Origin: a virus
Direction: 5' to 3' (one strand)
DNA: 64,000 nucleotides
IMG/VR virus record: IMGVR_UViG_3300032322_002674
Span: 45,458 to 109,457 of that record
The position numbers were made by a program, and so were the translations under genes. Position 1 is the first letter of the stretch; every line of letters begins with the position of its first letter. The notes under the pieces are model-generated. The model made no database searches. It was given only the letters and a program-made list of their open reading frames with translations, and was not told where the DNA came from. Shown here piece after piece: positions 16,616 to 51,106 of this stretch.

Positions 16616-16652
16616 CAAAGTTACATATTTATTTATTAAAAACTAATGCAAA
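16616..16652 (-). promoter_or_regulatory. Bacteroidetes-like promoter box upstream of the GNAT genes
   Basis: On the minus strand TTTGCA (16647-16652), 23 bases, TAACTTTG (16616-16623), then TG. The same arrangement occurs at 11213, 35929 and 39105. It overlaps the start of the divergent gene at 16646. Confidence 0.4.
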
Positions 16653-18688
16653 ATTCTTGTGGAATCCTTTTTATTTCAAAACCAACAAAAAAAATTGGTT
16701 TGGGTTTACGTGCAGATGGTAATAGTCCTAATACTTGGTCAACCATTGGTGGTGGAATTGAAGAAGGTGAATCTTTTTTGGAATGTCTAACAAGGGAAAT
16801 TAAAGAAGAATTGGGAATTGATTTAAACCCAAAATTAATTCCAATTGATGATAATGAAAATTATAAAACATTTATTTCTTTTGTTGATTCAGAATTCACA
16901 CCCACTCTTAATAAAGAACATTCAGATTTTAAATGGTTTGATTATTCTGAATTACCCAAAAATATCCATCCAGGACTTAACAAAACATTAACAAAACCAT
17001 TTGTTCAAAAAGTTTTAAATAAACATTTAAATGAAACCACAACTGATGCAAGTGGTAGTTTTGTGGGTACTTTAAATTCACCAATACATAGGGGTAATAT
17101 TGGGGATTATATAAAAGAGGATTTGGAGTTAAAATCCAGAGCAAAAGACCAAGAAAAACAAAGGGAAGAATATATTAAAGATTTAATAAATAAAGTGACA
17201 AAACCCCCTATAAGGGAAGTTAAATTGGAAGATTTACAGAAATTAAAAGAATGGGATATACAAAATGATACAAAATATATAAATGAATTTAATAATAGAC
17301 TTTTTGAATATTATTATGAAATTGAAAGTTATTTTGATAAAGGTGTTTTTATTTTAAAAAATGGTGAAAAATTTCAATTACAATACATAACCAATCATTT
17401 TTCTTTGGTTACACCTAAATTAAGGGATTATATTAAAGGAAATAAATGGCATGATATAGTGTACTTCTCAAACACAAAAGAAATGTTTGAAATATTGGAT
17501 AAAATAATGGAATCAGTAAATATGAAAGAAAACATAAGTATTAAAGAAAACATAAAAAATGATGGAAAAAATTATGATGTTATTCATGAAGATGATGATT
17601 TATTGGTTATAAATGTTAGAGATGCAAAAACTGCAAAATGTTTTAGTCAAAATACACAATGGTGTTCACAAAGTAATCCAGGTTTTAGAAATCATTATTT
17701 ATCAGAAGAGTTACAAAAAGAATATTTTAAAAATAAAGGTTTATTAAATGAAACAATTGTAAAAAATAATAATGAATATTGTTTAAAATCCAAAAAAGGA
17801 AAAAATTTGGGTTGTTACCCAACAAAATCTGGCGCAGAAAAAAGGGAAAGACAAGTACAATATTTTAAACACTTAAATGAATATCAGGTTTCACCTGGGG
17901 AAACAGTAGAATGGGATTTGGAAAATAATACCACCAAAATTAATCGTTTAGATGGTTCTATTGAATGGATTTTACAAAATGAACACCAAACCCTACCTTA
18001 CTTAGAAAAGTTGTTTAAAACATTAAATAAACAACAAATTATCGAATTCTCAAAAAGATTATATAATAAATTATCATCTGGTGGAAATAAAAGAAAAATC
18101 ATAATGATTGGTTTGGTTACTGCAATGATAAATTATGGTATATCAAAAGATGATATTCTTCATGAATTTAATAGTTCAGATATTGAACAACTTATTCAAA
18201 AAGATATTAAACCTAAAATAGAAAAACAATATAGGGGTGATATTAATGATTTTTTAAATCTTCTTGCATTTAAAGAAAGTTCTGGTAATTGGAAAAAAAT
18301 CAGATATTCTAAAAAAACTGGTAATCCTGTATATATTGGAAAATATCAATTTGGTAAAATTGCACTTGAAGATTTGGGTGTTAATCCTGATATTATTTTA
18401 CAATTTAAAGATAATCCTAATGTATTCCCACCAAAAATGCAAGATAATTTAGTTAAAAAATTATTAAATAAAAATAGAAAATACTTGGGTGATAATTATC
18501 TTTCTTATGATGGTAAAACTGTTGGTGGTATAAATGTTACTGAATCAGGTTTACTTGCAGCATCACATTTAAGGGGTGCTCTTGCAGTTAAGAAATTTAT
18601 TGATTCAAATGGTAAGATTGATTTATCTGATGCAAACGGAACAAAGGTTTCTGATTATATGAAATATTTTGGTGGATTTAATATTTAA
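16646..18688 (+). CDS. Nudix hydrolase / lytic transglycosylase multidomain protein
   Basis: The 680-residue product starts with a Nudix domain (about 1-125) holding the Nudix box GGGIEEGE then REIKEELGI. A cleavage-like LNE precedes TTTDASGSFVG. At about residue 160 comes LELKSRAKDQEKQREEYI, a segment repeated elsewhere in the window. About residue 328 is CFSQNTQWCSQ, like the T-x-W-C motif of a common phage domain, and then a Cys-containing KSKKGKNLGCYPTK part. The last 145 residues have LLAFKESSGNWKK, IGKYQFGKIAL, GLLAASHLRGALA and VSDYMKYFGGF, the pattern of a phage transglycosylase (Glu of KES catalytic). It may be a head-packaged polyprotein (inference). Confidence 0.75.
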   Translation: MQNSCGILFISKPTKKIGLGLRADGNSPNTWSTIGGGIEEGESFLECLTREIKEELGIDLNPKLIPIDDNENYKTFISFVDSEFTPTLNKEHSDFKWFDYSELPKNIHPGLNKTLTKPFVQKVLNKHLNETTTDASGSFVGTLNSPIHRGNIGDYIKEDLELKSRAKDQEKQREEYIKDLINKVTKPPIREVKLEDLQKLKEWDIQNDTKYINEFNNRLFEYYYEIESYFDKGVFILKNGEKFQLQYITNHFSLVTPKLRDYIKGNKWHDIVYFSNTKEMFEILDKIMESVNMKENISIKENIKNDGKNYDVIHEDDDLLVINVRDAKTAKCFSQNTQWCSQSNPGFRNHYLSEELQKEYFKNKGLLNETIVKNNNEYCLKSKKGKNLGCYPTKSGAEKRERQVQYFKHLNEYQVSPGETVEWDLENNTTKINRLDGSIEWILQNEHQTLPYLEKLFKTLNKQQIIEFSKRLYNKLSSGGNKRKIIMIGLVTAMINYGISKDDILHEFNSSDIEQLIQKDIKPKIEKQYRGDINDFLNLLAFKESSGNWKKIRYSKKTGNPVYIGKYQFGKIALEDLGVNPDIILQFKDNPNVFPPKMQDNLVKKLLNKNRKYLGDNYLSYDGKTVGGINVTESGLLAASHLRGALAVKKFIDSNGKIDLSDANGTKVSDYMKYFGGFNI

Positions 18689-18720
18689 TTAATTTGAAGA
18701 GTATAATAAATTATAGAAAT

Positions 18721-19334: not shown

Positions 19335-19380
19335 CTTTATTTATAAATATTAATGATAATATAATAAAGATTTTTGGAAA

Positions 19381-20067
19381 TTAAAGAAAATGTATTTTAT
19401 AATATATTCTTTTTATTTTATTTCTTTTATAATCATTTTTAACAATACCTTTCATTTTTCCCTCCATTAATCTTTTTTCTGGATTTGTCCAATATTCATG
19501 TGCATCTTCTAAAGTCATATCACCATTTATGTGTAATTTTTTGATTGAACTACCATAACGATTAGAAATATCTTTACGAATAAAAATATATGATTTAGGA
19601 TTTTCTACATTAAACATATCATATTTATCACTAAAAATTGTTTTAATTATTTCAGAAAATCTTTCATTACTATAAATTTTATCATTTCCATCAGTTTGAT
19701 GTGAGTATTTTAACATTGTTGGGTTATTTGTTTTAATAAAATCATTAATTATTTTTGGTGCAGTTGCAGTTACTTTTAACCAAGATTTAGATGTTTTTAA
19801 ATCATTATTCATATCTTTTAACCAACCCCAATGTATGTCAAAATAAAAATCAGGTATTTTACCTTCTAAGAAATAATTAAAATAAAAATGAATGTCATTT
19901 TCTCTACGAAAATAAAATTTAACTTTTATCCCATCTTCATTAATAATATATTCTGTATCTGAAATTTTTTTAATATTATTCAAAGGTGAATCAAATAATT
20001 CTTCATTTAAAACATTATATCTTTTAAATTCTTTTAATAATTGATTATAAATTTTTTGTTCTTTCAT
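19381..20067 (-). CDS. Putative head-internal protein of a recurrent phage module family
   Basis: The 228-residue product begins with a helical leader (MKEQKIYNQLLKEF...) ending in VLNE, then ELFDSPLNNIKKISDTEYII and KVTATAPKIINDFI, HQTDGNDKIYSN. The same layout is in the protein at 24316-24978 and, more diverged, in two modules of the 1200-residue protein at 39629 and in 61849-62388. L-N-E at the end of the leader suits prohead-protease cleavage, so the leader may be a capsid-targeting sequence (inference). Function is unknown. The start overlaps the upstream gene by 23 bases. Confidence 0.55.
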   Translation of the reverse strand: MKEQKIYNQLLKEFKRYNVLNEELFDSPLNNIKKISDTEYIINEDGIKVKFYFRRENDIHFYFNYFLEGKIPDFYFDIHWGWLKDMNNDLKTSKSWLKVTATAPKIINDFIKTNNPTMLKYSHQTDGNDKIYSNERFSEIIKTIFSDKYDMFNVENPKSYIFIRKDISNRYGSSIKKLHINGDMTLEDAHEYWTNPEKRLMEGKMKGIVKNDYKRNKIKRIYYKIHFL

Positions 20068-20989
20068 TATTTATAAATATTTCATATTCATCTATTGGTT
20101 TACCTATTTTAGATACAATAAAAACTTCTGTATATTCATTTGTTTTTTCATAAATTTCTTTTGCCTTTTCAAATGCAAGTTTTTGATATAACTTACCAAC
20201 ATGATTTCTATTATTCTTACCATGAAATGCTTCAATAGTCATAGGTCTATTTGGTGTTATTAAACCATTATATCTATTTCCTCTACCAACTTGTCCATCA
20301 TCACCGTTTTCGATTGATGACCCACAAAGAGTTAAAAAAGGAATATCTGACGTATTAAATAAGACATTTCCAATATTTAATTTATTAATAAAATCTTTTT
20401 TTATTAAATCATATTCATTTTTATTTTTACAAAATTTTGAATATATTGGTGAACATATTGTAATTGAGTTTGGTGTTAGCATTATTTTATATAATTCACC
20501 AATTGGTAATACCTTTATTAAATCTTTAATTTTTTCTGAAATTTCAAAAACAAAATTTTCATTCTTAGAATAAGGATAATAACCAACACCAAAACTTGTA
20601 TCATTCGCTAAAATTATTTCATTTTCAGAAATTTTATTTAATGAATAAGACACATTATTTGATTTTATCAAAATATTAATATTAGGTAAATTTGGTACAA
20701 GTTCTTTTATTTTTTTATTTATTCTTTCATTTAATATGTTTTTTAATTCATCATCTAAAAAAGATATTTGCCCACCTAAAATAAATTCAGGTTCTTTAAT
20801 TATTTCACCACCACCAAAATAAATATTTATATCACCAGCACAAAGTAAAGATTTATCAATATTATAGTGTTTTATATGACCATATTTAGTTTTATAATAA
20901 TAATCTAAGGTATTTGTTAAATCATCACAAACTATATCACATATAGTGTCTGGATGTGCGTTGCTTTTATACTCAATTATTTCAAACAT
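20045..20989 (-). CDS. mat: S-adenosylmethionine synthetase, archaeal type
   Basis: The 314-residue product has the hallmarks of archaeal-type MAT: SNAHPDTICDIVCDDL near the start, HYNIDKSLLCAGD, IYFGGGEIIKEP, NDTSFGVGYYPYSKNE, then GSSIENGDDGQVGRGNRYNG, LITPNRPMTIEAFHGKN, HVGKLYQKLAF and SKIGKPIDE. The enzyme joins ATP and methionine to give AdoMet, with release of phosphate and diphosphate. It is shorter than archaeal enzymes (about 400 residues), so some loops are reduced, but the nucleotide and phosphate motifs are intact. AdoMet could feed methyltransferases such as the one at 63392. This type is not the usual bacterial MetK. Confidence 0.85.
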   Translation of the reverse strand: MFEIIEYKSNAHPDTICDIVCDDLTNTLDYYYKTKYGHIKHYNIDKSLLCAGDINIYFGGGEIIKEPEFILGGQISFLDDELKNILNERINKKIKELVPNLPNINILIKSNNVSYSLNKISENEIILANDTSFGVGYYPYSKNENFVFEISEKIKDLIKVLPIGELYKIMLTPNSITICSPIYSKFCKNKNEYDLIKKDFINKLNIGNVLFNTSDIPFLTLCGSSIENGDDGQVGRGNRYNGLITPNRPMTIEAFHGKNNRNHVGKLYQKLAFEKAKEIYEKTNEYTEVFIVSKIGKPIDEYEIFINNERTKNL

Positions 20990-21012
20990 AATTTAAAATA
21001 TAACAAATAAAT

Positions 21013-24313: not shown

Positions 24314-24315
24314 TT

Positions 24316-24978
24316 TTATTTGTTTTTATAATAAATATATGTTAATTTATATTGTTTTCTTTTTTCTTCTTCTTTTATGAAATCGTTTTTAACAATTCCT
24401 TTTAGGTCATTGATATTTGGATGTAGAACTCTTTGTTTTGCAACATCAAAAGATTCATTTAAAAATTGTATTCTTTTTTTGATTGCAGTTTCATAAATTG
24501 TTGATAGTTCTTTTTGAACTAAGAAAAAATTTTCTTTTTCATCATCGGATATGAAAATATATTTATCACCAAAAATCGTTCTTACTTTATCAATAAAATT
24601 TGGATTTGAATAAATTTTTTTATTTCCATCAGTTTGCCTACCAAAATGAATTACTTTTGGTTGATAATCTTCAATAAATTCGTTTATTATTTTATAAGAT
24701 GTTGCAATTACTCTACCCCAATTTTTAGGAGTTTTTAATTCTTCTTTCATTTCTTTATTCCACAACCAATAAACTTCCCAAAAAATATCTATTTCTTCTT
24801 TTTTAACTTTAATTAAATTTTCTACATCAAATCTGATTTTGAAACGAAAATCAACAATAACACCTTCTTCATTTATTTGATAGAATTGGTCATCAATTTT
24901 TTTAACATTTGTAAATGGGGTGTCAAAAATTTCTTCGTTTAAAATTTCTCTAACCAATTTAATAATTTCGTTTTTCAT
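24316..24978 (-). CDS. Putative head-internal protein, paralogue of 19381-20067
   Basis: The 220-residue product has leader MKNEIIKLVREILNE, then EIFDTPFTNVKKIDDQFYQI, VIATSYKIINEFIEDY and GRQTDGNKKIYSNPNF. All of these match the protein at 19381 in order and spacing. The L-N-E at the end of the leader again gives a possible prohead-protease site. The function of the family is unknown. Its start overlaps the stop of the upstream HExxH gene by 4 bases. Confidence 0.55.
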   Translation of the reverse strand: MKNEIIKLVREILNEEIFDTPFTNVKKIDDQFYQINEEGVIVDFRFKIRFDVENLIKVKKEEIDIFWEVYWLWNKEMKEELKTPKNWGRVIATSYKIINEFIEDYQPKVIHFGRQTDGNKKIYSNPNFIDKVRTIFGDKYIFISDDEKENFFLVQKELSTIYETAIKKRIQFLNESFDVAKQRVLHPNINDLKGIVKNDFIKEEEKRKQYKLTYIYYKNK

Positions 24979-25883
24979 AATGTATTAAAATAAATATATG
25001 GTGATTCATTCATCACTATTCTTTCATCCAAAAATTCATCAACATAAAAAATTAAATCACCTTCCTTTAAACCAACAGAATAACCTGCAACTTTAAGAAT
25101 TTTTTTATGTAATTTTTCTCCTTTTTCCTTAAATTTTTTATCAATATATTTTTTTAATTCATTAAAATCTTTAAAATTAAAATTCATTTTAGTTATTTTA
25201 AAACCACTATTAAAGGAAATTAAAAATTTTTCCTTTTCTTCATCACTTAATTCATCCAATTGATTTATGTTATAATTCATTAAATAAAATGAATCTTCAT
25301 AAATCTGTGATTGTTTTGTAAATTCTATAACTTCTTCTTTAGTTTTATTTTTTAATTGATAATGAAATTCTTGTACCCTTGCATTTATTTCTTCATCGAG
25401 TGATAAATAAAATAATCTTAAAAAATTTTTTATAATAGGATTTTCAATAAATCTATATTCAAAATTTAAAAGATTTTTTACTTTAACTAAATTTTTAGTT
25501 TTGGTTTCCTTATTAAATCTAATATAATCATCCCAGAAATGATGTAATTCATGTGAAAATATAAATCTAATTGTTTCTTTATCAGGATTATTATGATTAA
25601 ACCAAAGTTCAATATTTAAATTGTATTTAACATCACCAATATCATCAATAAAAGGATTTAAATTAATTCTTGCAGTTGTTTTATTTAAATCATTATTTGT
25701 TTTTATAACAATACTATTAATTGGTAAATCTTTAAAGTCATAGTTACCTTTATGAAGAATAAAACCAAATTTATTATTAATTGTTAATTCTGTTAATTGA
25801 TTAGTAAATTCATCTAATTTATTAACTTTACCGATTGATTCAAAAATATTATAAATTTCTTTTAATATTTCTTTAGTTTCCAT
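24975..25883 (-). CDS. Putative HExxH zinc metalloprotease-like protein, paralogue of 1474-2328
   Basis: A 302-residue protein with IRFIFSHELHHFWDDYIRF (HELHH) at about residues 105-123 and LRLFYLSLDEEINARVQEF about 40 residues on. Both blocks match the protein at 1474-2328, as does INQLDELSDEEKEKFL later. The conservation of the HExxH motif and the downstream acidic block between diverged copies suggests a functional metal site. It ends in VMNESPYIYF, another M/L-x-E followed by Ser. Overlaps both neighbours, so it is part of a tightly packed unit. Confidence 0.55.
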   Translation of the reverse strand: METKEILKEIYNIFESIGKVNKLDEFTNQLTELTINNKFGFILHKGNYDFKDLPINSIVIKTNNDLNKTTARINLNPFIDDIGDVKYNLNIELWFNHNNPDKETIRFIFSHELHHFWDDYIRFNKETKTKNLVKVKNLLNFEYRFIENPIIKNFLRLFYLSLDEEINARVQEFHYQLKNKTKEEVIEFTKQSQIYEDSFYLMNYNINQLDELSDEEKEKFLISFNSGFKITKMNFNFKDFNELKKYIDKKFKEKGEKLHKKILKVAGYSVGLKEGDLIFYVDEFLDERIVMNESPYIYFNTL

Positions 25884-26463
25884 AAATAATACTTCTAATC
25901 AGATTTTCAGAAATATTCATTTCTTTACTCAATTCTTTTATTGATTCTTTAACTAATTCTTCATCTTCCCACAATTCAAGTGCGTTTATATCTCCTTGAT
26001 TGCAATAAGGGAATTTTTTACATTTTTCTTTAACCTTAACAAATTTTCCTCCAGGAAATGTGGTTTTACTTTGATGTCTCCAATCTTTCTTGGACATTGA
26101 TTTTGCCCATGCCTTAGGTGTTTCATAACTCCCAGTTGAATCTGTGGTTGTTGCCTCACCCAATTCTGATTCCACCAATTTGATGAAATCACCTTTTTTT
26201 ATTACGTTTTCTTTCATATTTATTTGTTTTATAAAATCTATTAAAAATTTATAATCATTATTTAATTTACCATTTTTTATGTAACTTTCTATTTTTTTTA
26301 TTAAAGTATCATTATTTAAAAGTTTATAATTTTTTTGACTATCATAAAAATTTTTATTTAAATCCATTAATAAATCAATATCATCAAATGATAAATAATT
26401 TTTACCATCTATAACAATATTATCAGTTCCTATTTTATTATTTCTAAATTCTTCTACCACCAT
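25873..26463 (-). CDS. Putative head-associated protein with Cys-containing phage domain
   Basis: The 196-residue product has a helical N-terminal half, then LVESELGEATTTDSTGSYET, where L-x-E tripeptides precede a Thr/Ser-rich linker like that of the 16646 protein (LNETTTDASGSFVG). After this comes KVKEKCKKFPYCNQGDINAL, a basic Cys-containing domain that I recognise only as frequent in T4-like phage proteins. The role is unknown; processing at the linker is inferred. It overlaps the metalloprotease-like gene by 11 bases. Confidence 0.5.
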   Translation of the reverse strand: MVVEEFRNNKIGTDNIVIDGKNYLSFDDIDLLMDLNKNFYDSQKNYKLLNNDTLIKKIESYIKNGKLNNDYKFLIDFIKQINMKENVIKKGDFIKLVESELGEATTTDSTGSYETPKAWAKSMSKKDWRHQSKTTFPGGKFVKVKEKCKKFPYCNQGDINALELWEDEELVKESIKELSKEMNISENLIRSIIYGN

Positions 26464-26554: not shown

Positions 26555-27472
26555 TTAATAATTCAAATTCATCCCTAAGTAAAGTTGTTTTATTTTAATC
26601 ACTTTTCTATGTTCTATATATTTTTTTATTTGCTCATCAGTTAAATTTTTAAATTCAAGTAAGGTAAACCAATCATCTCTTTCTAATTTTCCATTAATAT
26701 AAATTTGTTTAATATTATTTGGTAATAAATCAAAAATAATATCAATAGGATTTGTATAATCACCTTGAATTTCATGTTCATTTTCAATTTCCAAAAAACC
26801 ATTAACATCCCTTTTAATTAATTCTGAATAATAATTTACATATTTTGATAAAACTTCATTTGGTAATTTTCTTATAATATTTTCTGGAATATCTTCATAT
26901 TCACCATTCATTATTTTTTTTGAATAATATTCTATTGCCTGTTTTTCTTGGTCATTTGCACGAGATTTAAGGTTTAAATTTTCTTTCACATTTTCTTTCT
27001 TTTCCAATTTTTCAATCTGTAATTTTATTAATTGTTCAATCGTTTTAAATGGATATTTGGAAAATTGAATCTCTGAACTAAAATCAATATGATTATGATT
27101 ATCAACATCAATCCTAAATAACCAAAAATCTGAACCACTTAAATTATGAAAATAAAAATGAACTTCATGTTTACCAATGTTTTTTTCAAAGAAGATTCTA
27201 AAATCAATAACATTTGGTTCATCAGTAAAAATTATTACTTTTTTTGTTAGTTCTAATTTATATTTTTCTTTTAAATAATCAGTAAATTTATTTAATATAT
27301 CTTTTTTTTGTACACCTAAAATATTATAATCTTGGTAATTAATATCAGTAATTTCTTTTTTTAAAATCTGATTTATATATTCTTCCCTTTGTTTTTCTTG
27401 GTCTTTTGCACGACTTTTTAACTCCAAATCTTCGATTAGTTTTAATTGTTTTTCGGTAAGAATATATTTCAT
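26555..27472 (-). CDS. Modular protein with two LKSRA segments, last repeat lost by frameshift
   Basis: I place the start at 27472 (MKYILTEKQLKLIEDL), since the upstream part of the open frame is out of character and crosses the divergent gene. LELKSRAKDQEKQREEYI follows at about residue 16 and NLKSRANDQEKQAIEYY at about residue 165, each just after L-x-E or V-x-E. The C-terminal part has helical repeats of the type found at 49577 and 51872. The frame closes at 26555, but another frame continues directly as KTTLLRDEFELLSEEMKNWY to a stop at 26493, completing one more repeat. So a frameshift in the A-rich stretch near 26595 is likely. Confidence 0.55.
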   Translation of the reverse strand: MKYILTEKQLKLIEDLELKSRAKDQEKQREEYINQILKKEITDINYQDYNILGVQKKDILNKFTDYLKEKYKLELTKKVIIFTDEPNVIDFRIFFEKNIGKHEVHFYFHNLSGSDFWLFRIDVDNHNHIDFSSEIQFSKYPFKTIEQLIKLQIEKLEKKENVKENLNLKSRANDQEKQAIEYYSKKIMNGEYEDIPENIIRKLPNEVLSKYVNYYSELIKRDVNGFLEIENEHEIQGDYTNPIDIIFDLLPNNIKQIYINGKLERDDWFTLLEFKNLTDEQIKKYIEHRKVIKIKQLYLGMNLNY

Positions 27473-36112: not shown

Positions 36113-36280
36113 TTATTGTTTTTTTAATTTTTGTTCATCAATTTCTTTCGCAGTAAAAGGAATTCTATCCATGACCATACCATAACCTTTATCAATCCAT
36201 CTTTTATAGATTAAAGTTTTTAAACCCCTTTCCCAGAACCAAACATAAAGTTCATTACCTTTTTTTTCTTTACTAATCAT
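36113..36280 (-). CDS. Small hypothetical protein (55 residues)
   Basis: The ATG at 36278-36280 overlaps the gltX stop as ATGA, so it is translationally coupled. The product is MISKEKKGNELYVWFWERG with a basic middle and the end PFTAKEIDEQKLKKQ, which resembles the FxxEEI motif seen at the N-terminus of other proteins here. No family is recognised. Confidence 0.55.
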   Translation of the reverse strand: MISKEKKGNELYVWFWERGLKTLIYKRWIDKGYGMVMDRIPFTAKEIDEQKLKKQ

Positions 36281-39189: not shown

Positions 39190-39654
39190 ATGAACTTAAA
39201 AAGTGCATCAGGAAACTACAACTTTAAAAAAGATTTAAAGATTGGTAAAAAGGGTGAGGATTATATAATTAATTTTCTTGAATCAAAAGGTTTTAAATTT
39301 ATTGATAGAAATAATGATAAAACATTTGATTTATTAATGGAATGGAGGGGAAAAAAGATTAAATATGAAATTAAAACAGATGTTTACCCAAAAGACACAG
39401 GAAATATGGTTATTGAATTTGAGAGTAGAGGAAAAGATTCTGGAATATCTGTAACCAAATCTCATTATTATATATATTATTATGCTCATTATGATGAAAT
39501 TTGGTTAATAAGAACCAAAGACCTTAAAAAACTTATTAAGGAAAATAATCTTAAATGGGTTAATGGTGGTGATTGGAGAAGTAACACAAAAATGTGGATT
39601 ATTCAAAAGGAAAAATTTAGAAATTGGTTTAAGGTATATAATTTTGCGAAATAA
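39190..39654 (+). CDS. PD-(D/E)XK-family nuclease-like protein
   Basis: The 154-residue protein has IGKKGEDYIINFLESKGFKF (Glu-bearing first helix), then KTFDLLMEWRGKKIKYEIKT (Asp, then E-x-K), the full catalytic set of the fold: E...D...ExK. A basic, aromatic C-terminal part follows. This arrangement resembles small phage endonucleases such as Holliday-junction-type or methylation-related nucleases. The target is unknown. Its last 26 bases overlap the convergent 1200-residue gene. Confidence 0.65.
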   Translation: MNLKSASGNYNFKKDLKIGKKGEDYIINFLESKGFKFIDRNNDKTFDLLMEWRGKKIKYEIKTDVYPKDTGNMVIEFESRGKDSGISVTKSHYYIYYYAHYDEIWLIRTKDLKKLIKENNLKWVNGGDWRSNTKMWIIQKEKFRNWFKVYNFAK

Positions 39655-42600
39655 TTTCCTCCAATCTCTTATATAATTCACCAACCGAATAAAATTTTTC
39701 ATCTAATAGTAGTCCTGTTGTACCAATTTTTTTATCATCAAAACATCTTAAAACAAAGTAATTTCTTGTTGATACAAAAATTGTAATGTGACTTGGTTTG
39801 TTGTCATAAGTAATATAAATAAAATTATCATCATGTTTTAAATTTGGGAATTTTTGTTTTATTCTATTAATTATAAATTTATCCATAAAATGTTCATCAA
39901 TTTTTTCAACTTCAACTACTTCTTTTGGTTTTAAATCCATAATTGATTTATCACCAATAATATTTTTTATATAATCATTTCTTTGTTTTTCTTGTTGATT
40001 TGCTCTAGAAGTTAGTTTTAAATTTTCTTTTATATTTTGTTTTTTATAATTTCTTACTAATTTTTTTAAATAATCTGGATATAAAAAATAAAAATCTTTA
40101 TCATAATTTTTGATTATTAAACCAATATACTTATTTAACAATTCATTTGAAGTATTTTTTACTTGTTCTTTAGAAAGTACTCTTGGTGTATTATTTGGAT
40201 TTAAAAATAAATAATTAATGTATTTTTCTTTTAAATCATCAGTCAAAAATTTATACTGAATATCTGATAAATTCCAATTAACGTGTTTTAAAATTTTATT
40301 TAAATAATATTGTTTTAAATCATCTGATAAAGATAAAAAATATTCATCACTCAAACCCCAACCAGAATCAATATATTCTTTTTTTAGTGGTTTACTTAAA
40401 TCTAAGAAATAATCATATTTAAGTAAATTTGGGTAGAAATTAATAATTTTAGATTTAACATCATCTGAAAGAAGTTTAAAAACCTCTTTAGGTATTTTTA
40501 AATTAAGTTTTTCACTATGAGTACCATTTAAAAATTTATCTGAATAGTATTTTACTGATTGAATTATTTGGTTATTTGCACGAGATTTTAAATTTAATCC
40601 TTCATTTAAGTTTTTTAATATAACAGAAAAAACCCAATAGTAACCAGAATTATTTCCTTTAGATAAAACTTTAAGTGTTGGATTTTTTTCTTTTATTGTT
40701 TGTAATCTTAAATTAAGATTATCAAAATTAGTATCAAAAATTAAAGACAAATTAGTAATTTTCGTATTACCTTTTTCGTAAGATATTTTATAGTTGTCAA
40801 TATCAATAACTAATGAATTTAAATTTATTGAATCATTTTTACTTATATTTAACAGTTTATTTCTTAAATCCTCTAAATTATTAGCACTAATATTAATTTG
40901 TTCATTTTTATTTTCTGAAACAACAAAAAAACTTTGTTTGTAATAAATTGTTTCACCACCTAACAAAAAATTAATTGTAACTGTTTTAATTTTTTTAGAA
41001 TTACCACCGTAATGATTTTTTAGTCTATCTTCTAATCCAGAAATTTGTTGGTTATGTCTTTGTTCAAAGTTATCACCAATACTACCTCTTGTAGTGAATA
41101 TAGTATAAGAATTACCATCTTTTGATTCAATAATATCACAAGAACTTTCTGTTATTATTTTATTATCTTTTACATAAGTTTTTATTTGTATGTTAGTTAC
41201 ATCTGTTTTAAAACCTTGATTATTTAATTTTTTTAGTTCATCAGAAACTCTTTGTTCAAAATCATCTGAAAGTCTTTTTGAACCCAGTATTCCATGCACT
41301 AAATCTAAGTCAGGGTTTGAAATTGATTGTACACCAACAGGTCCATTAACTTTAGATAAAATTTTTGTTTGTATTTGTTGTTGATTAATATTTTGAGATT
41401 TAACTTCTTGCGGATTTAAGGATGATAAACCTATCGCAGTACCAATTAACATATCTTTCCAACTTTCATTTAAATCTTTTCTTTTAATAAATGTAACATT
41501 TCCTTTGTATTCCAATTTATAATCTTGCGGTAGGTTTTTTGATAAAAATAATCTATTTATTTTTGCTCTTTTATTTGGTTCGTTGTCATCTTTTTTATTC
41601 CCACTTAAAATAGAATCAATTGAAAATCTTCCCATTGTTTCCTTTCTTGAATCAATATGTGAAATGGTTATTATTTCAGGTCTATAATCATTAATAAATT
41701 CATTTGTTATTTTTGTAACAGTACCAAGAACTCTTAAAGAATTTTCTTTATTTAATTCATTCATCCATTTTGATGTTGTGTAATATTCTCTTTCCCATTC
41801 TTCACCAAACTTTCCAATTGATAAAAGAAGAAATTTAACAAAGAATATTTCCTCACCATCTGAAAAACGATATTTTATTTTATCACCATCCACAATTTTT
41901 TCATAAGAATAAGTGTTGGTTAATTCTGCAATTTCATTAATTTGTTTTTTAGATTCTTTTAAATTTTTAAAATCAAGTAAATTACCATTAGAATCATAAG
42001 TTTTGGAAATTGAATAAAATAAAAATTCTAGAATTTCATTGATTGTATCAAACTCTATGTTTATATTCTTTAATGTTCTTTCTTGTGTTATTATATCTCT
42101 TGGACCTAAAATATGTAAGTTTATTTTATCTAAATGTTGAGTAATTGAAAACGAACCAATGATATTTTTAAAACGTATATTTTTAAAATCAACTTTATCA
42201 AAATTAAGATTATTTTCATAAAATTTATCAAAAGTATTAATAAAAGGATATTTTTCTTTAACTTTTTGTCTTATAATTAAACCCAATAAATTCAAAATAT
42301 TTTCAGGTAAATCTTTTACTGGTGAATTTAGAATTTTATCATCAATATTTTTAATGTATTCTTCCCTTTGTTTTTCCTGTTCTTTTGCACGAGATTTTAA
42401 ATTTAAATTTTCTTTTAAATTATAATTATCAGAAATAATTTCTTCCAATTTATTATATAATTCACCTACTGTATTAAATTCTTCTTCCATTATAATTTCA
42501 CCAAAACCATTATATGTTGTGATTGGTGTATAAAAATGTAAAAAAAATTTTTTCCCATTCGAGAAGAAAAGTAGTTTTTTATTTCTTATATCTATAAGAA

Positions 42601-43231
42601 ATAGATTATTATACTTTAATTTTGGGAATTTTTGTTTTAATTTATTAATTAATATTGGAAATATAAATTTAGACAAAAAAGTTGAATTTACTTCTTTTGG
42701 GGTTAATTCCATTATATCTTTATTTCCAATAATACTTTTTATATATTCTTCTCTTTGTTTCTCTTGTTCTCCAGCACGAGATTTTAAATTCAATTTATTT
42801 TCAACCAAATCAATTTCAGTATTATTACCAAAAGTTTTGATTTTATAGTTACTTGGTAATACTTTTTCCAAAAAATATTTGTTCACCCTTGTTCTTTTAT
42901 TTTCATCATAGGGGTTATTTGCAAATTCACTTTTACTTCTTACATGGTAAATTTTTATTTTCTTTGGGTTATATTTTTCAATAAAATCCAAAGTAATTTT
43001 TGTTATTGTATTTAATATTTTAAATCTTTCCTGACTATTAATATCATCAAATTGTTTCTCAAATGTTGAAAAATGTCTATTCCAAATATCATTACCATCT
43101 AATATAAAATCTACTGAAAAATTATAATCATCATCAGTCTTAAAATTATACGTAATAATATTTAGATTCCTATTTTTAGTTCTTTTTGTAATATAAACAT
43201 TAGATAAATCTACTATTTCGGTTAAAAACAT
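39629..43231 (-). CDS. 1200-residue modular protein with four LKSRA segments
   Basis: The protein begins MFLTEIVDLSNVYITKRT and a module with ITKITLDFIEKYNPKKIKIY; a second such module near residue 450-590 has VTKITNEFINDYRPEIITIS. LNLKSRA-type segments lie near residues 150, 275, 880 and 1070, each just after [L/I]-x-E (LVE, LKE, LNE, IKE). Three of them are followed by similar basic-helical blocks with a KFP segment and a short beta part, the fourth by helical repeats (LSDDLKQYYLNKIL). The middle (about 600-870) has no recognisable domain. I infer a packaged polyprotein cut into pieces by the prohead protease. No enzymatic motif is seen. Confidence 0.55.
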   Translation of the reverse strand: MFLTEIVDLSNVYITKRTKNRNLNIITYNFKTDDDYNFSVDFILDGNDIWNRHFSTFEKQFDDINSQERFKILNTITKITLDFIEKYNPKKIKIYHVRSKSEFANNPYDENKRTRVNKYFLEKVLPSNYKIKTFGNNTEIDLVENKLNLKSRAGEQEKQREEYIKSIIGNKDIMELTPKEVNSTFLSKFIFPILINKLKQKFPKLKYNNLFLIDIRNKKLLFFSNGKKFFLHFYTPITTYNGFGEIIMEEEFNTVGELYNKLEEIISDNYNLKENLNLKSRAKEQEKQREEYIKNIDDKILNSPVKDLPENILNLLGLIIRQKVKEKYPFINTFDKFYENNLNFDKVDFKNIRFKNIIGSFSITQHLDKINLHILGPRDIITQERTLKNINIEFDTINEILEFLFYSISKTYDSNGNLLDFKNLKESKKQINEIAELTNTYSYEKIVDGDKIKYRFSDGEEIFFVKFLLLSIGKFGEEWEREYYTTSKWMNELNKENSLRVLGTVTKITNEFINDYRPEIITISHIDSRKETMGRFSIDSILSGNKKDDNEPNKRAKINRLFLSKNLPQDYKLEYKGNVTFIKRKDLNESWKDMLIGTAIGLSSLNPQEVKSQNINQQQIQTKILSKVNGPVGVQSISNPDLDLVHGILGSKRLSDDFEQRVSDELKKLNNQGFKTDVTNIQIKTYVKDNKIITESSCDIIESKDGNSYTIFTTRGSIGDNFEQRHNQQISGLEDRLKNHYGGNSKKIKTVTINFLLGGETIYYKQSFFVVSENKNEQINISANNLEDLRNKLLNISKNDSINLNSLVIDIDNYKISYEKGNTKITNLSLIFDTNFDNLNLRLQTIKEKNPTLKVLSKGNNSGYYWVFSVILKNLNEGLNLKSRANNQIIQSVKYYSDKFLNGTHSEKLNLKIPKEVFKLLSDDVKSKIINFYPNLLKYDYFLDLSKPLKKEYIDSGWGLSDEYFLSLSDDLKQYYLNKILKHVNWNLSDIQYKFLTDDLKEKYINYLFLNPNNTPRVLSKEQVKNTSNELLNKYIGLIIKNYDKDFYFLYPDYLKKLVRNYKKQNIKENLKLTSRANQQEKQRNDYIKNIIGDKSIMDLKPKEVVEVEKIDEHFMDKFIINRIKQKFPNLKHDDNFIYITYDNKPSHITIFVSTRNYFVLRCFDDKKIGTTGLLLDEKFYSVGELYKRLEEIISQNYIP

Positions 43232-43265: not shown

Positions 43266-44936
43266 ATGGATAATAATTTATTTTTAGAATATGCACGTTG
43301 TTTAAGTGATTCAATTTACACAATTGAAACATATTTACAAACTTTTGATAAAACTCAAGGTGGATATGTTCCATTTAAACTATTCCCAAAACAAAAGGAA
43401 TTAATTGAAAATTATGAAAAGAATAATTTTGTTATATTAAAAAAACCAAGACAGGCAGGTATTACAACAACAACTGCAGCATGGGTTTCACATAGAGTTG
43501 GTCTTGCAGATGAATTAAGACCAGAAAGAATACTTCTTATTGCAAATAAACATGAAACTTCACAGAAATTTCTTGCTCAAGTAAAAGAATTTTTATCCCA
43601 ATACCCTAAATGGATGGATGTGTCTATTGCAAAAGATGCAGTAAAATGGAATGAAAAACATATAATACTTAAAAATGGTTCAGAAGTTAAGGCAGTTGCA
43701 ACATCAATTGACTCTTTAAGGGGTTATTCACCAACAATAGTTATATTTGATGAGGCAGCATTTATTGATAATGGTGATGAATTATGGAAGGCAACATTTC
43801 CATCACTATCAACTGGTGGTAAATGTTTTATGATTTCCACTACAAATGGTATGGACCCATTATATTTTGTTACTTATGATTCTTCTTTACAAGGAAAAAA
43901 TGACTTTAAAATAGTTGAAGTTGAATGGTGGCAAGACCCAAGATATAATAAAAATTTGGAATGGAGAAAAGATGATGATATAATTAAAAGTCAAGATTTG
44001 GATTTGGGTAAAGAATTAAAAAGAAAAGGTTATAAACCCTGGTCTCCCTGGTATGAAAATATGTGCAGACAAATGAATTGGAATCAAAGAGCAATTGCAC
44101 AAGAATTGGATGGTGATTTCGTTGGTTCTGGTGGTAATGTTATTGATGAAGAATATATTAAAATGCAAGAAGTTGAAAATGTATCAGAACCTATAAGAAA
44201 GGAAAATTTTGATGGTAATATGTGGATATGGAAAGACCCTGAATATGGTAAAAGATATATATTAAGTTGTGATGTATCTTCTTCTTTTGGTACAGATTAC
44301 TCAACAATACAAATAATTGATATTGAAAATAATGAACAAGTTGCAGAATATCAGGGTAAAATAAGACCAGATACATTTGCAGAATTAATATATGAATATT
44401 GGAAACGTTATGGTGGGTTAATAGTTCCTGATGTTACAGGTGGTATGGGATTAACTGTTATTCTTAAATTATACGAATTAGGTTTGGATAAAAAGAATAT
44501 GTATTATGATATACCAAAGGCAAAGATAATGAATGATAAATTTTCTCACTTAAAAACATCTGATGAAAAAATGCCAGGTTTCCAAATCCAATCAAATAGA
44601 GCATTAATTGTTGATGAATTTGAAAGACAAATAAGAATGAATGAGTTTAAAGTACGTTCTTCTCGTTTATGTAGTGAAATGAAAACATTTATTTATGATA
44701 GAAGTGGAAAACCAAACCATACAAAAAATACTCATGATGATTTAATAATGGGTTGTGCAATGGGGTTATATGTTATTCAAACTTCTTTAAAATTTATTGA
44801 TAAAAATATGAATCATGCAAAGGCAATACTTAATGCAATGATAAATGTAAATAACAAGGAAACTGTTTCTAATAATGAAAGATTTATTAGTCCAGAAAAT
44901 AAACAATATATGGATAATATGTGGTTGTTTAGGTAA
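43266..44936 (+). CDS. terL: Terminase large subunit (T4 gp17-like)
   Basis: The 556-residue protein has the adenine-site region LFPKQKELIENYEKN, Walker A VILKKPRQAGITT (about residues 57-69), motif III-like STTNG after VIFDEAAF (Walker B), and the C-terminal RuvC-like nuclease: SCDVSSSFGTD, PDVTGGMG and HDDLIMGCAM. Length is close to T4 gp17 (610). It pumps DNA into the prohead and cuts the concatemer. No small terminase gene is adjacent; the surrounding genes are on the opposite strand. Confidence 0.97.
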   Translation: MDNNLFLEYARCLSDSIYTIETYLQTFDKTQGGYVPFKLFPKQKELIENYEKNNFVILKKPRQAGITTTTAAWVSHRVGLADELRPERILLIANKHETSQKFLAQVKEFLSQYPKWMDVSIAKDAVKWNEKHIILKNGSEVKAVATSIDSLRGYSPTIVIFDEAAFIDNGDELWKATFPSLSTGGKCFMISTTNGMDPLYFVTYDSSLQGKNDFKIVEVEWWQDPRYNKNLEWRKDDDIIKSQDLDLGKELKRKGYKPWSPWYENMCRQMNWNQRAIAQELDGDFVGSGGNVIDEEYIKMQEVENVSEPIRKENFDGNMWIWKDPEYGKRYILSCDVSSSFGTDYSTIQIIDIENNEQVAEYQGKIRPDTFAELIYEYWKRYGGLIVPDVTGGMGLTVILKLYELGLDKKNMYYDIPKAKIMNDKFSHLKTSDEKMPGFQIQSNRALIVDEFERQIRMNEFKVRSSRLCSEMKTFIYDRSGKPNHTKNTHDDLIMGCAMGLYVIQTSLKFIDKNMNHAKAILNAMINVNNKETVSNNERFISPENKQYMDNMWLFR

Positions 44937-45617: not shown

Positions 45618-45948
45618 ATTTATCCATTATTTTTAAAATATATTCGTTATGAATTTGATTTTGTATTTTATTATTATTTATTTTAAATATTTTTTTATCT
45701 TTATCAATATAAAGATATTCTTCATCTTTATAATTTGATTTAATAAAAATACCTTTTTTTGGGTTTAAAAATGATTGAAAAAGATTTTCAGAAATAACAC
45801 CCTTAAAAATATCACCTCTAAATATTTCTATATAATAATACACATTTGTAGTACCAAAATAAATGTTACCTATATCAATAACATCTTCACTTTTTATTGA
45901 AAAAATTGAACATTTTTTAATTTTAATTTCTTCTATTTGCCAGAACAT
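45610..45948 (-). CDS. Small protein with N-terminal MFWQIEEI motif
   Basis: A 112-residue protein starting MFWQIEEIKIKKCSIFSIKS, one of the two clearest copies of the N-terminal motif. The remainder is beta-rich (YYYIEIFRGDIFKGVISEN) and not assigned. Its start codon overlaps the stop codon of the upstream gene by one base and the DNA around it repeats that of the next copy. Confidence 0.5.
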   Translation of the reverse strand: MFWQIEEIKIKKCSIFSIKSEDVIDIGNIYFGTTNVYYYIEIFRGDIFKGVISENLFQSFLNPKKGIFIKSNYKDEEYLYIDKDKKIFKINNNKIQNQIHNEYILKIMDKYE

Positions 45949-46634
45949 TAGAATATATTAATTTTACTGTCATTTATATTAAAAATCAAATGTTTATATT
46001 TACATTTTACATAATTAACAACAGAATTTTTAAATGTTAAAGTACCATGTACTTTGGTCAAAGGAAAAATGTTTATATTAACACCATCTAAAGTTAAATC
46101 ACCAAAATATTCAGTACCCAATTTTTTAGGTAATTTAAAATTATTAATAGAGTTATTAGAAAGAATTTCCCTTATCATTTCTGATTTATATTTTTGCAAA
46201 CCATGAATATTATTAATATATCTATCAATTACTTCATTTTTAACTTCAATTATGTTATTGTTAATTATTTTAAATATATTTAAATCATTCATAATTACCA
46301 AAGTATTTTGATTATTATATTTCACATAATTTATCATAACACCAGTTGGTTTATCTTTTTTTATTGACATTTGGAATGTTTTCATACTATCTAAGTAGAA
46401 AATATTTTTATAGAAATATTTTATATCAGACTTAACAAAACTTTGCCATTCCTTTTGTGAAGGACTTGATTCTATTTTAAAAATCGTATTAATATCCCTT
46501 CTTTTAAATAAATTTAAAATTAAAGGAATATCTTCATTAGTAGTTTTTACAGTTTGTTTACTAATGTAGGTTTTTTTTATTCTTTGTTTCGGTATGAAAC
46601 AAGGTAATTTTAATTCTTCTATTTGCCAGAACAT
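45948..46634 (-). CDS. Protein with N-terminal MFWQIEEL motif and beta-solenoid-like end
   Basis: The 228-residue product starts MFWQIEELKLPCFIPKQ. Residues 165-228 have short strands (YFGDLTLDGVNINIFPLTKV, then GTLTFKNSVVNYVKC) like those of a small beta-helix. It shares the first codons with its neighbour 45610-45948 at DNA level, so the pair derive from a duplication of at least the N-terminal end. Function unknown. Confidence 0.5.
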   Translation of the reverse strand: MFWQIEELKLPCFIPKQRIKKTYISKQTVKTTNEDIPLILNLFKRRDINTIFKIESSPSQKEWQSFVKSDIKYFYKNIFYLDSMKTFQMSIKKDKPTGVMINYVKYNNQNTLVIMNDLNIFKIINNNIIEVKNEVIDRYINNIHGLQKYKSEMIREILSNNSINNFKLPKKLGTEYFGDLTLDGVNINIFPLTKVHGTLTFKNSVVNYVKCKYKHLIFNINDSKINIF

Positions 46635-46978: not shown

Positions 46979-47016
46979 AATCTTAAATTTAAGAAAAAAA
47001 AATGAATTAATCAAAT

Positions 47017-49584
47017 TTAGAAAAAATTTGGGTTTAAGAATACTCCAGAAAAAGTTAATGGAGTGATTAAAGTGATATTATTTGGTCTGTTTTGAAACAA
47101 AACTTGTGATGCAACCAAACCAGAATTTTGGTTATTTAAAATAACCCTTTCAACACTCAATTCACAATTATCGTTCATAATAATTGAATTTCCTGATTGC
47201 CAAAATCCACATGTTGTAAGTAATCCATTAATTTTACCTACTTGTGGTAAAACTACTTTAGAATCAATTTGTAATGTAGAAAGTTCTGTTTCTAAATGTG
47301 GTGGTTGTTCATTTTTAAATTCAGAACCATAATCAATACCTTTTTTATATTGAAATTTTTGTCTATCAAATAAGGTATTTCTATATTTTTCACCACCTTT
47401 CCATATTGTAGTTGCAGGAATAAATTGTTGTATTAAACCAAACCAATAGGAATCAATTAAATTAATATATTGATTCATCATTATTTGATATGTTAAACCT
47501 TTTGAATCAATTCCACACTTTTCTAAAGAATTTAAATAATCTTCATAAATCATTCTTAATGTTGGGTAATAAGATACTGTTTTTCTTGTTCTTGCATCAA
47601 TAAATCTTTCATAACTTAATTTAATGAATTCTGAAAAAGTCATTGCAGATATTGATTTATCATAACCATAGGTAGGATACTTTGAAATATCGCAAAGTGG
47701 ATAATTGGTTTTATAAAAATTAAATACATCACATTCTATTGCCTTTGCTGGGTCTAAAAATAATGTTACTTCCTTTGTATTTATTATTAATTCACTTCTT
47801 TTTTCATTATAATTGGTTTCCCTTAATTCTAAATTATAATTTCTATTGGTTGTATTACCTGTATAAACCCAAGATTTTTTATTATCTTCTGTTAAATTTA
47901 AAATAAAACCAATATCACGAAATTTATCCATATATTTTTGACCAAAATCATAAGAACCTTCATGGTAAACATTTTCTTCAAACCAACCACCATTCATTTG
48001 AAAATAATAATCAAAAGTATTGGGTAGTTTATTAGGAAAACCTTCTTCGGAAATTGGGTAATCAGACATATTAATTGATAATCCTGATAAATTAATTAAA
48101 TTTAATTTTAATTGGTCATAATCTACAATATTATCTACTGTGTAAACATGTTCATTAAAATCAACTAAACAATCTGGTGCACCGATAAATCTAAACAAAA
48201 ATTCTAAAACTTTTCTTGTTCCTTTTCCTTTCCATAAAAATGAAGAATTTAAAATAATTCTTCTCCAAAGTTCAATGTCCATTTCTGATGGAGTTAAAAA
48301 AGTTTTATTGTTACCATAAATGGGTGAATCCCCTGTTGAAACAAAGAATTTTAATAAATCATTTTCGTTAATTGATTGTAAAACATCAAAACCTAAAACT
48401 TTTGCAAAATTTTTAACTAATTGGTCTGGTAAATTTTCTAATTCCCTATTGTATTGTATTGTTGATGAAAATGCAATAGAATCAATAAATAATTTTATTT
48501 CATCCAATTCCCTTCCATAAACTTTTAACATTTTATCAAATTTTAAATTTGGTGTATCAAATTCCTTTAAAACTGATGTGGTTAAAAATCTTGAAACTAA
48601 ATCAGTTTTATATTGGTCATAAGTTAATGCAAGATTATTTAAATCATTTAAATACAATTGATATAGACTGGTGTTAATATCAATATTATAACCATCTGAT
48701 GTGGGAAATGTGAAACTTTGTTCTGTAAAACTGGTAATTCCATTACTATCTTCTTCTATTACTGAAAAAGTTGCAGTATATTTTGGTGTAGTATCCCTAT
48801 TTAATAAATAAGATTGAAAATAAGAAATAGAATTAAAAAAATTATCAATTACATTTTGGATAGGTTTTATATGATAAGTTATAGAAAGTGAAGTATTACC
48901 ACTAAAAGGATTTCCTTCACAAACTATTGTTAAAAATCCAGTACTAACAGTAGTAGAACCAGTAAATTCCAATATTTTATAACCAGATTCAAAAGGTGGG
49001 AAAGAAATTTCGTAATTCAAAAAATTTGCAGAAATGTTTCTTAAATCATTTGTTGGTGAAAAAGAATTAATTAAAACATCTTCTTCCGTATAAGACATTT
49101 CAAAATTATTAACAAAAGAAGATACTGGAACATTAAAAGTTGATTTGTTTGTTAAAGAATCATAAACATTATTTAATACTGTAATTTTAACTTGACCATC
49201 AATAAGTGATGAAACAACTAAAGATGATGGAAATTTTTCAATAATATCTTCTATTTCAACTCTTATAAATTCTTTTAAAGAACCAAAATATGCATAGTTT
49301 TTTAAATTTTTTCTATCATAATTTAAAAATATCTTAATATTGTTTGATTCTATGTTTTCTGAATTACTTTCTAAATTAATTGTTTCTACTGTTATAGGAT
49401 TAGAAAAACTTCCTAAAGTATAATTTTTAACAAATCTTTCTTCTAAATTTGATGTAATTTCAAAGTTACCAAATGTAAAAAGTGAACTACCATTGGTTAT
49501 TTGCAAACCAACTAAGTTTGGTGAAAAATCACTTTTATTATATGCATCCGTTAAGGACTTTGGTATGACTTTTTTATTACTCAT
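47017..49584 (-). CDS. Large tail/baseplate structural protein with tail-protein-I-like core
   Basis: An 855-residue virion protein. The central part has FLWKGKGTRKVLEFLFRFIG at about residues 450-470, a pattern like the W-x-K-G-T-x-x-x-I-E-x-x-x of P2-type tail protein I, which links wedge and fibre. The end has FIPATTIWKGGEKYRNTLF then FDRQKFQYKKG, commonly seen in T4-like baseplate proteins. The first 250 residues are beta-rich. It lies next to gp25 and other baseplate-type genes. The exact T4 counterpart is not certain. Confidence 0.6.
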   Translation of the reverse strand: MSNKKVIPKSLTDAYNKSDFSPNLVGLQITNGSSLFTFGNFEITSNLEERFVKNYTLGSFSNPITVETINLESNSENIESNNIKIFLNYDRKNLKNYAYFGSLKEFIRVEIEDIIEKFPSSLVVSSLIDGQVKITVLNNVYDSLTNKSTFNVPVSSFVNNFEMSYTEEDVLINSFSPTNDLRNISANFLNYEISFPPFESGYKILEFTGSTTVSTGFLTIVCEGNPFSGNTSLSITYHIKPIQNVIDNFFNSISYFQSYLLNRDTTPKYTATFSVIEEDSNGITSFTEQSFTFPTSDGYNIDINTSLYQLYLNDLNNLALTYDQYKTDLVSRFLTTSVLKEFDTPNLKFDKMLKVYGRELDEIKLFIDSIAFSSTIQYNRELENLPDQLVKNFAKVLGFDVLQSINENDLLKFFVSTGDSPIYGNNKTFLTPSEMDIELWRRIILNSSFLWKGKGTRKVLEFLFRFIGAPDCLVDFNEHVYTVDNIVDYDQLKLNLINLSGLSINMSDYPISEEGFPNKLPNTFDYYFQMNGGWFEENVYHEGSYDFGQKYMDKFRDIGFILNLTEDNKKSWVYTGNTTNRNYNLELRETNYNEKRSELIINTKEVTLFLDPAKAIECDVFNFYKTNYPLCDISKYPTYGYDKSISAMTFSEFIKLSYERFIDARTRKTVSYYPTLRMIYEDYLNSLEKCGIDSKGLTYQIMMNQYINLIDSYWFGLIQQFIPATTIWKGGEKYRNTLFDRQKFQYKKGIDYGSEFKNEQPPHLETELSTLQIDSKVVLPQVGKINGLLTTCGFWQSGNSIIMNDNCELSVERVILNNQNSGLVASQVLFQNRPNNITLITPLTFSGVFLNPNFF

Positions 49585-51106
49585 TTGTTATATCACCCTC
49601 TTTTAGAATTTCAGTTAATGTTTCTATTAATGTTTTATAATTTGTTGCAAATTCTGATTTTTTAAAACCTTTATTAAAATGACCTTTACCTATTATCATT
49701 ATTTTAAATAATCCAAAAGTTGGCACTACTATAACTACAACTTCTGTATTACCATGAGTAAATTTTAAAAAACTATCAGTTATTTTATAATCCCAATAAT
49801 TACGTAAAACACCCAAATCTTCAATAACTTTTTTCCAAATTATATCTAATTTCTCAAAATTAAAAAATGTTTTTATGTCTTTTGCATTAATATTTTCAAT
49901 TCCTTTTGAAATAATGGTTTTAATATATTCTTCCTTTTGTTTTTCCTGTTCTTTTGCACGAGATTTTAAATTTAATACTTCATTTATATTTCTATTTTCA
50001 ATATACCATGTCATTTTATAATTTGATATACCAAGACCCATTTCATCAAGTCTAATTTTAATATATTTTAATTTTAATTCATCTGGGGCAAAATCAAATT
50101 CTTCATCTGATAAAACTGAACCTTTATGTTGGTTTTCAATTATATATTTAATGTATTTTAATTTTAAATCATTTGATAAAGAATTAAATTTTTCTTTTGT
50201 TAAACCAAAACCAACTTTACGATTGATAATGTTTTCAACATATTTTAATTTAATATTATCTGGTAATTTATCAAAAATATTATCTGGAATATCCCATTCA
50301 CCTTCCTCAATTTTCTTTGTATAATATTCTATTGCTTGTTTTTCCTGGTCATTTGCTCTGGATTTAATCTTATCACTTAAACTTTCACTTAATCTTTTTA
50401 TCCATAATTTAGATTTCTTTAAATCTTTTATATAATCACCAATAAATTCTTCTTTTAATGATAAATCATCCCACATATAGACTTCTAAGGTTTTTTGATA
50501 ACCTTTCATTACCTTCTTAATATTTTTTTCATCACTTAAATAACAATTAAGAAGTGTTGTTGGATAACCACCTTTTTGAATAACAAAATATTTTTCTTCA
50601 CCAATTAAAATATCCCCTATTACATAATCCAATTCTGTTTCATCCATAGGAATTCTTAGTCCACCTTTGGATATTTTAAAAGATTCAGAAATTGGTAAAT
50701 CAATAAAAGAAATAATTATAGGTGCATTTTTATTACCACCTAAAAAGTAACCCCATGCAGTAAATCCATCATCCCAAGATTGTTTAAAATAAGAATCAAA
50801 TGAATTATAATCATCATCCAATTTTTTATATTTATAGGGGTTATCATTGATAGGATAAATGTCATTAATGGGTATATAACAAATATAAAGGTAATTTGTA
50901 TTAACACCTTTATCAAATTTATAACCATCTTCATTACAATAAAAAAAACTTCTCGATTTACCCCAAATCCTAAATTCATTTTTTGAATGAATATTATAGG
51001 GTTTATTTACTTGAATAAATCCAGAATCAATTTTTTTATCAGAATAGTGATATAATTTCACCATCCCATTTTCTACTGTAAGTGATTTTAAGAAATTTTT
51101 ACCCAT
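49577..51106 (-). CDS. Modular protein: LYHYS domain, two LKSRA segments and helical repeats
   Basis: The 509-residue product begins with a domain holding VKLYHYSDKKIDSGF and EFRIWGKSRSFFYCNEDG, which I recognise only as a phage-type domain with some likeness to ADP-ribosyltransferase N-terminal strands (weak). DKIKSRANDQEKQAIEYY at about residue 245 and LNLKSRAKEQEKQKEEYI at about residue 376 are preceded by LSE and INE. Between them are helical repeats: TKEKFNSLSNDLKLKYIKYI and SDEEFDFAPDELKLKYIKIR. A cleaved, head-packaged polyprotein is inferred. Starts 4 bases before the next gene stop. Confidence 0.5.
   Translation of the reverse strand: MGKNFLKSLTVENGMVKLYHYSDKKIDSGFIQVNKPYNIHSKNEFRIWGKSRSFFYCNEDGYKFDKGVNTNYLYICYIPINDIYPINDNPYKYKKLDDDYNSFDSYFKQSWDDGFTAWGYFLGGNKNAPIIISFIDLPISESFKISKGGLRIPMDETELDYVIGDILIGEEKYFVIQKGGYPTTLLNCYLSDEKNIKKVMKGYQKTLEVYMWDDLSLKEEFIGDYIKDLKKSKLWIKRLSESLSDKIKSRANDQEKQAIEYYTKKIEEGEWDIPDNIFDKLPDNIKLKYVENIINRKVGFGLTKEKFNSLSNDLKLKYIKYIIENQHKGSVLSDEEFDFAPDELKLKYIKIRLDEMGLGISNYKMTWYIENRNINEVLNLKSRAKEQEKQKEEYIKTIISKGIENINAKDIKTFFNFEKLDIIWKKVIEDLGVLRNYWDYKITDSFLKFTHGNTEVVVIVVPTFGLFKIMIIGKGHFNKGFKKSEFATNYKTLIETLTEILKEGDITNE

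Follow-up and report, generated by a model that had tools for sequence, protein, structure and literature searches.

Candidate module polyproteins with prohead-protease-type sites in an uncultured ~300-kb phage

An uncultured ~300-kb phage encodes proteins in which one conserved segment recurs at the start of successive modules, nearly always after a tripeptide of the kind recognized by prohead proteases. The best-supported reading of these sequences, to which we give a probability of about 70%, is that they are polyproteins packaged into the head, where the maturation protease splits them at module borders. Computational analysis identified the segment, the sites, the protease, the site in the capsid protein and the module borders; packaging, the actual cleavage, ejection and the functions of the modules are what we infer. 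Four proteins from the window (the whole 64 kb stretch of DNA analyzed) and nine others would be precursors loaded into the prohead, where the gp21-like S77 prohead protease of the phage would cut them after [L/I/V]-x-E. Since every site lies at a module border, maturation would split one chain into several proteins inside the head. Most of the released pieces would begin with the segment, and the modules would be injected along with the DNA to serve as early host-directed proteins, in the manner of Alt and the internal proteins of T4.

The segment and its preceding tripeptide

The phage is covered by two overlapping contigs from one sample (IMG/VR), G000 (173,457 bases, including the window) and G001 (IMGVR_UViG_3300033571_022960; 133,435 bases). 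Because they overlap at both ends, by 6,904 bases at 99.99% identity and by 43 exact bases, both belong to a single ~300-kb genome, which is probably circular or circularly permuted. Coordinates given below with no contig or locus name refer to the window, and ↓ denotes a cut site.

The original prediction had read nine copies of the segment in four window proteins, preceded by IKE, LIE, VKE, LVE, LKE, LNE, IKE, LSE and INE, and all nine copies were recovered in place with exactly these tripeptides. An HMM built from them found 33 copies in 13 proteins of the whole phage (17 copies in 7 proteins on G000, 16 in 6 on G001), with the consensus G/N/S/D-L-x-L-K-S-R-A-x-x-Q-E-K-Q-x-E-Y. Two copies open their reading frames at the start methionine (MGNLKLTSRA... 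and MPLNLKSRA...). The 31 non-initiator copies all follow [L/I/V]-x-E (29 with L or I, 2 with V) against an [LIV]xE background of 2.1% per residue in the phage proteome, which bears out the expected excess over chance; as the copies are paralogues, 31/31 does not represent independent draws and multiplying their probabilities would mislead. The tripeptide is retained despite varied spacing to the segment (GLNLK, NKLNLK, GLSDKIK), and in 26 of the 27 tallied sites the E is followed by G, N, S, D or A, a set that makes up 28% of the residues after [LIV]xE generally.

In a site-anchored alignment, P1 (always E) carries 4.2 bits and P3 (always L, I or V) 2.9 bits, P2 is variable (1.7 bits), and each column farther upstream holds about 1.5 bits or less. 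As upstream conservation is confined to P3 and P1, both positions appear selectively retained; common descent, or a constraint from the linker's structure, could account for part of this conservation among paralogues. The segment copies share a mean DNA identity of 71%, with a mean dS of 0.69 against a dN of 0.35, and their invariant Ser and Arg are encoded from different codon boxes. Since dS exceeds dN and the codon boxes differ, the segment seems to be kept as protein, suggesting selection on its amino acid sequence. The segment was not found in sequenced prokaryote genomes, in deposited phages having the 1200-aa protein described below or, save for one marginal partial match, in 18 large relatives (by capsid protein).

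A gp21-like protease and the expected capsid-protein site

T4 gp21 cleaves after L/I-x-E, and short propeptides target cargo to the T4 head (PMC9026906). The original prediction had made the presence of a gp21 homologue one of its tests, and such a gene, a Peptidase_S77 prohead protease, lies on G001 at 102527-103246 (PF03420, E 6.4e-21, 75 bits, cut-off 27). In the alignment with T4 gp21, H95, S160/S161 and D186 line up (motifs LGExNHP, GVSSRG and D). G001 also encodes a gp23-type capsid protein (PF07068, E 4e-75) and a gp20-type portal (E 5e-72). The capsid protein has SYLINE↓ATTTD at the expected cut site, with LINE in 42/42 compared sequences. Profile searches of the window contig G000 with PF03420 and PF07068 gave no match because the head genes sit on G001. 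Adjoining the capsid gene is a gp22-like scaffold candidate, named on position and composition only, with no family match. The gp20-, gp21- and gp23-like genes on G001 and the terminase gene listed here mark the virus as a T4-like tailed phage.

43266..44936 (+), terminase large subunit (phrog_2, E 1.4e-46)

Modules, sites and domain borders

The four candidate polyproteins of the window and the neighboring site-bearing genes are as follows.

16646..18688 (+), polyprotein 1: Nudix domain, HLNE↓ site, IKE↓ module, C-terminal lytic-enzyme-like region
17111..17119 (+), IKE tripeptide of polyprotein 1, directly before the segment at 17120-17176
26555..27472 (-), polyprotein 2: CTS-like propeptide, alpha/beta module, VKE↓, helical module
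27431-27472 (-), propeptide of polyprotein 2, MKYILTEKQLKLIE↓
26981-27430 (-), alpha/beta module of polyprotein 2
26558-26980 (-), helical module of polyprotein 2, after VKE↓
39629..43231 (-), polyprotein 3 (1200 aa), several modules
42800-43231 (-), N-terminal domain of polyprotein 3, MFLTE↓IVDLS...
42410-42799 (-), type-A module of polyprotein 3, after LVE↓ (AlphaFold2 model)
40601-42409 (-), module of polyprotein 3 after LKE↓, with a second copy of the N-terminal domain inside, after QINE↓
40025-40600 (-), helical module of polyprotein 3, after LNE↓
39632-40024 (-), module of polyprotein 3 after IKE↓
49577..51106 (-), polyprotein 4, three parts
50384-51106 (-), N-terminal domain of polyprotein 4, fold without assignment
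49979-50383 (-), helical module of polyprotein 4, LSE↓SLSDKIKSRA
49580-49978 (-), alpha/beta module of polyprotein 4, INE↓VLNLKSRA
25873..26463 (-), separate protein with LGE↓ATTTDSTGSYETPKAWAKS
24316..24978 (-), stand-alone gene, N-terminal ILNE↓EIFDTP, weak alignment with the duplicated domain of polyprotein 3
19381..20067 (-), second such stand-alone gene, VLNE↓ELFDSP, 38% identical to 24316-24978

The varied module content that had been predicted was found in part: polyprotein 1 has a Nudix domain at aa ~10-113 (PF00293, E 6.7e-14) and helical repeats occur, whereas the supposed transglycosylase amounts to a weak endolysin match in the C-terminal region of polyprotein 1 (phrog_26675, E 1e-5). 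At least two distinct domains are combined in polyprotein 1 (Nudix, module and lytic-like region) and in the 1399-aa protein described below (HD-type domain and modules). The first site of polyprotein 1, HLNE↓TTTDASGSF, resembles that of the capsid protein in its TTTD tag, and its second, IKE↓DLELKSRA..., opens the module. Likewise, the ATTTDSTGSYETPKAWAKS stretch after LGE↓ at 25873..26463 resembles the capsid sequence after its site (LINE↓ATTTDSSGSFETV), and a homologous stretch occurs within a fused protein encoded by a related phage. Polyprotein 2 begins at the ATG at 27472 (MKYILTEKQLKLIE...). In an orthologue of polyprotein 4 (L017) the segment has diverged, yet LKE and IGE are kept at the equivalent places.

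Judged by homology, the sites fall at domain borders in two chains. In a 1399-aa protein (G001 5566-9798), homology to a stand-alone HD phosphohydrolase extends to aa 179, with LNE↓ at aa 184, so that the HD-type domain stops five residues before the cut; the stand-alone HD homologue of a 635-kb phage ends a few residues at most from the matched stretch. In polyprotein 3, the two copies of the duplicated N-terminal domain (32% identical, E 5e-18) start at LTE↓ and INE↓. Many more [LIV]xE tripeptides lie within the modules, with 28 in the frame of the 1200-aa protein as one example, and the commonness of the motif speaks against reading it as a cut site. A further module gene, at L038 16180-16746 (MKYLITEKQLRLIEDLELKSRAN...), stops after 70 aa and may resume in the next open frame; the break may be a frameshift or an assembly error.

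Sites of the same type end short N-terminal stretches. Stand-alone module genes on G001 begin with a T4-CTS-like propeptide (MKYIITEKQLKLIE↓GLNLKSRA), and genes with no module have similar starts (MVRYILTEKQLDLLFE↓ and MKFLITERQLKLFE↓). The propeptide MKY(I/L)(I/L)TEKQL(K/R)LIE↓ was found in 4/13 segment proteins, in addition to MLKISDILNEIVQENLNKLKE↓, and several others begin with a domain or with the segment. Proteome-wide, [LI]xE[AGSN] with the cut at residues 8-25 occurs 33 times, twofold the 16.4 +/- 3.9 of shuffled sequences, and 0 of 1000 shuffles reached 33.

Module folds and the possibility of uncut chains

The AlphaFold2 model of the type-A module at 42410-42799 (mean pLDDT 84.4, pTM 0.75) places the segment in a helix at residues 5-24, followed by two helices, four strands and one helix. 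In the model, then, the segment forms the N-terminal helix of a folded ~130-residue module and is not a free tag. When the segment is removed, the downstream parts form several sequence groups, including a helical-repeat class distinct from the alpha/beta class, so the segment also precedes unrelated helical-repeat modules. A two-module AlphaFold2 model was poor (pLDDT 50), too low to show site exposure. Compared by Foldseek with PDB and viral structures, the module model had no match below E 0.001. The likeness to nucleic-acid-binding proteins of the PC4/MRP/PURA type consisted of weak PDB matches and was not relied on, and ADP-ribosyltransferase-like or kinase-like domains proposed for segment proteins had no Pfam or PDB support.

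The confident placement of the segment as a first helix is also what would be expected under the main rival explanation, which we consider unlikely: uncut multidomain ("polyvalent") head proteins, in which a repeated domain simply begins with the segment as its first helix, [LIV]xE is the usual end of a linker and the chain works whole, which is the case for many such proteins. Phage polyvalent proteins of 2-15 domains are known, some of them packaged unprocessed (PMC5512222). The linkers otherwise vary freely, however, whereas their P1 is always E and P3 always L, I or V even where the spacing changes. Moreover, the same tripeptide closes short N-terminal propeptides, which are not domains, and matches both the motif of the protease class that this phage encodes and the site in its capsid protein.

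A matching layout in a related phage

A related 296-kb phage has no such segment and carries its own module family in a matching layout. Its single genes read MKIIITESQYKLIKE↓NVSLKEKL..., and its fused module copies follow LIKE↓ and LNE↓, one of them behind the following domain.

L139 12193-13728 (-), Fe/Mn superoxide dismutase (Pfam, E 6e-40 and 4e-22)

The dismutase is flanked on one side by a zincin-like HEWVH domain and on the other by a cargo-type module; both borders have [LI]xE sites. As the layout is built here on an unrelated module, it arises with different modules. In a second large relative (286.8 kb, 286 kb read), no module family of this type was found.

These domains bear on a second alternative, which we regard as improbable, namely that the chains are scaffold-like core or long-propeptide proteins that the protease cuts and whose pieces are discarded, making room for DNA. 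Precedents exist in the T4 core proteins gp22, gp67 and gp68, which are cleaved to multiple fragments that exit the head (PMC9026906), and in SPN3US long propeptides with several cut sites (PMC10052503). Against it, the chains bear Nudix and HD-type domains, and the related phage a superoxide dismutase; folded modules are flanked by conserved sites, and the phage has the separate gp22-like scaffold candidate near its capsid gene. Finally, it is highly improbable that the repeats are a DNA-level recombination hot spot or gene-shuffling junction with no protein function, for although modules are shuffled among genes, fused genes exist and one related-phage fusion keeps propeptide remnants (TTTENQYKLIKE↓), the segment copies have the 71% DNA identity, excess of dS over dN and differing Ser/Arg codon boxes described above.

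Comparison with known systems

By analogy, the putative cutting of these polyproteins would work like the processing of T4 internal proteins, with the modules as putative virion cargo. Shared with the CTS-bearing internal proteins of T4 are the S77 protease with the expected residues, the capsid LINE↓A site, short N-terminal propeptides ending in [LI]xE (in some of the segment proteins) and cargo-like enzymes. T4 substrates of this type, however, are trimmed of a propeptide and yield a single mature protein, whereas here the modules of one chain are set apart by as many as 8 segment-type sites, and the conserved segment, downstream of the cut, would stay on the product. The giant phages phiKZ, 201phi2-1 and SPN3US (gp175/gp245-type proteases; PMC9026906, PMC10052503) also have a gp21-like protease and several cut sites per protein, but their motif is S/A-x-E instead of L/I/V-x-E, and their multiple sites remove propeptides, whereas those described here separate modules. 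The polyvalent proteins of phages and plasmids (PMC5512222) likewise carry many enzyme or binding modules per chain and are probably co-delivered with DNA. Their processing was proposed to occur via a zincin domain of the same chain (not universal), in contrast to the capsid maturation protease and repeated site proposed here; no Pfam peptidase match was found in the window polyproteins or in the 1399-aa chain, all of them chains with partly assigned domains. A literature search that covered few subscription journals found no description of such module polyproteins.

That phages package and trim single cargo proteins is already known. Module strings separated by maturation-protease sites would be the phage counterpart of viral polyproteins, which suggests a format for loading several proteins beyond the single CTS fusion of T4. 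The rule of L/I/V-x-E plus a lineage-specific segment would also predict head cargo among the unknown proteins of giant phages. More tentatively, the segment is possibly a new capsid-cargo signal, though we think this rather doubtful: it is mobile, lies after the cut, would be retained on the mature protein, is common to unrelated folds and stands even at a start codon, so that with [LIV]xE it would make any fusion a prohead-processed, injected cargo. If so, the phage would run a polyprotein programme off its maturation protease.

Other genes of the phage

Several small proteins start with MFWQIEE(I/L/V)K (45610-45948 and 45948-46634; L038 1644-2426; L039 13594-14163), possibly a further N-terminal tag. 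A many-copy paralogue family, mostly of ~100 aa, with the start MNL(N/Q)KT(I/L)xNLxKSxxGFFN occurs across the phage, including these members.

L042 2863-3484, MNL(N/Q)KT family
L041 16433-17111, MNL(N/Q)KT family
L004 11498-12275, MNL(N/Q)KT family, and others

An AdoMet synthetase gene lies at 20045-20989 (-) (PF01941, E 8e-72), and a second AdoMet-synthetase-like gene (L006 382-1692, -) and a glutamyl-tRNA-synthetase-like gene (36277-37839, -) were read from the sequence. Also read from it were polynucleotide kinase, phosphatase and ligase-like motifs in a 725-aa protein (33737-35914, -), a combination that suggests RNA repair, and a SHEL(L/H)H(F/L)-like zinc-peptidase motif in three diverged paralogues of ~280-340 aa.

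1474-2328 (+), SHEL(L/H)H(F/L) paralogue
24975-25883 (-), SHEL(L/H)H(F/L) paralogue
L003 763-1788 (-), SHEL(L/H)H(F/L) paralogue
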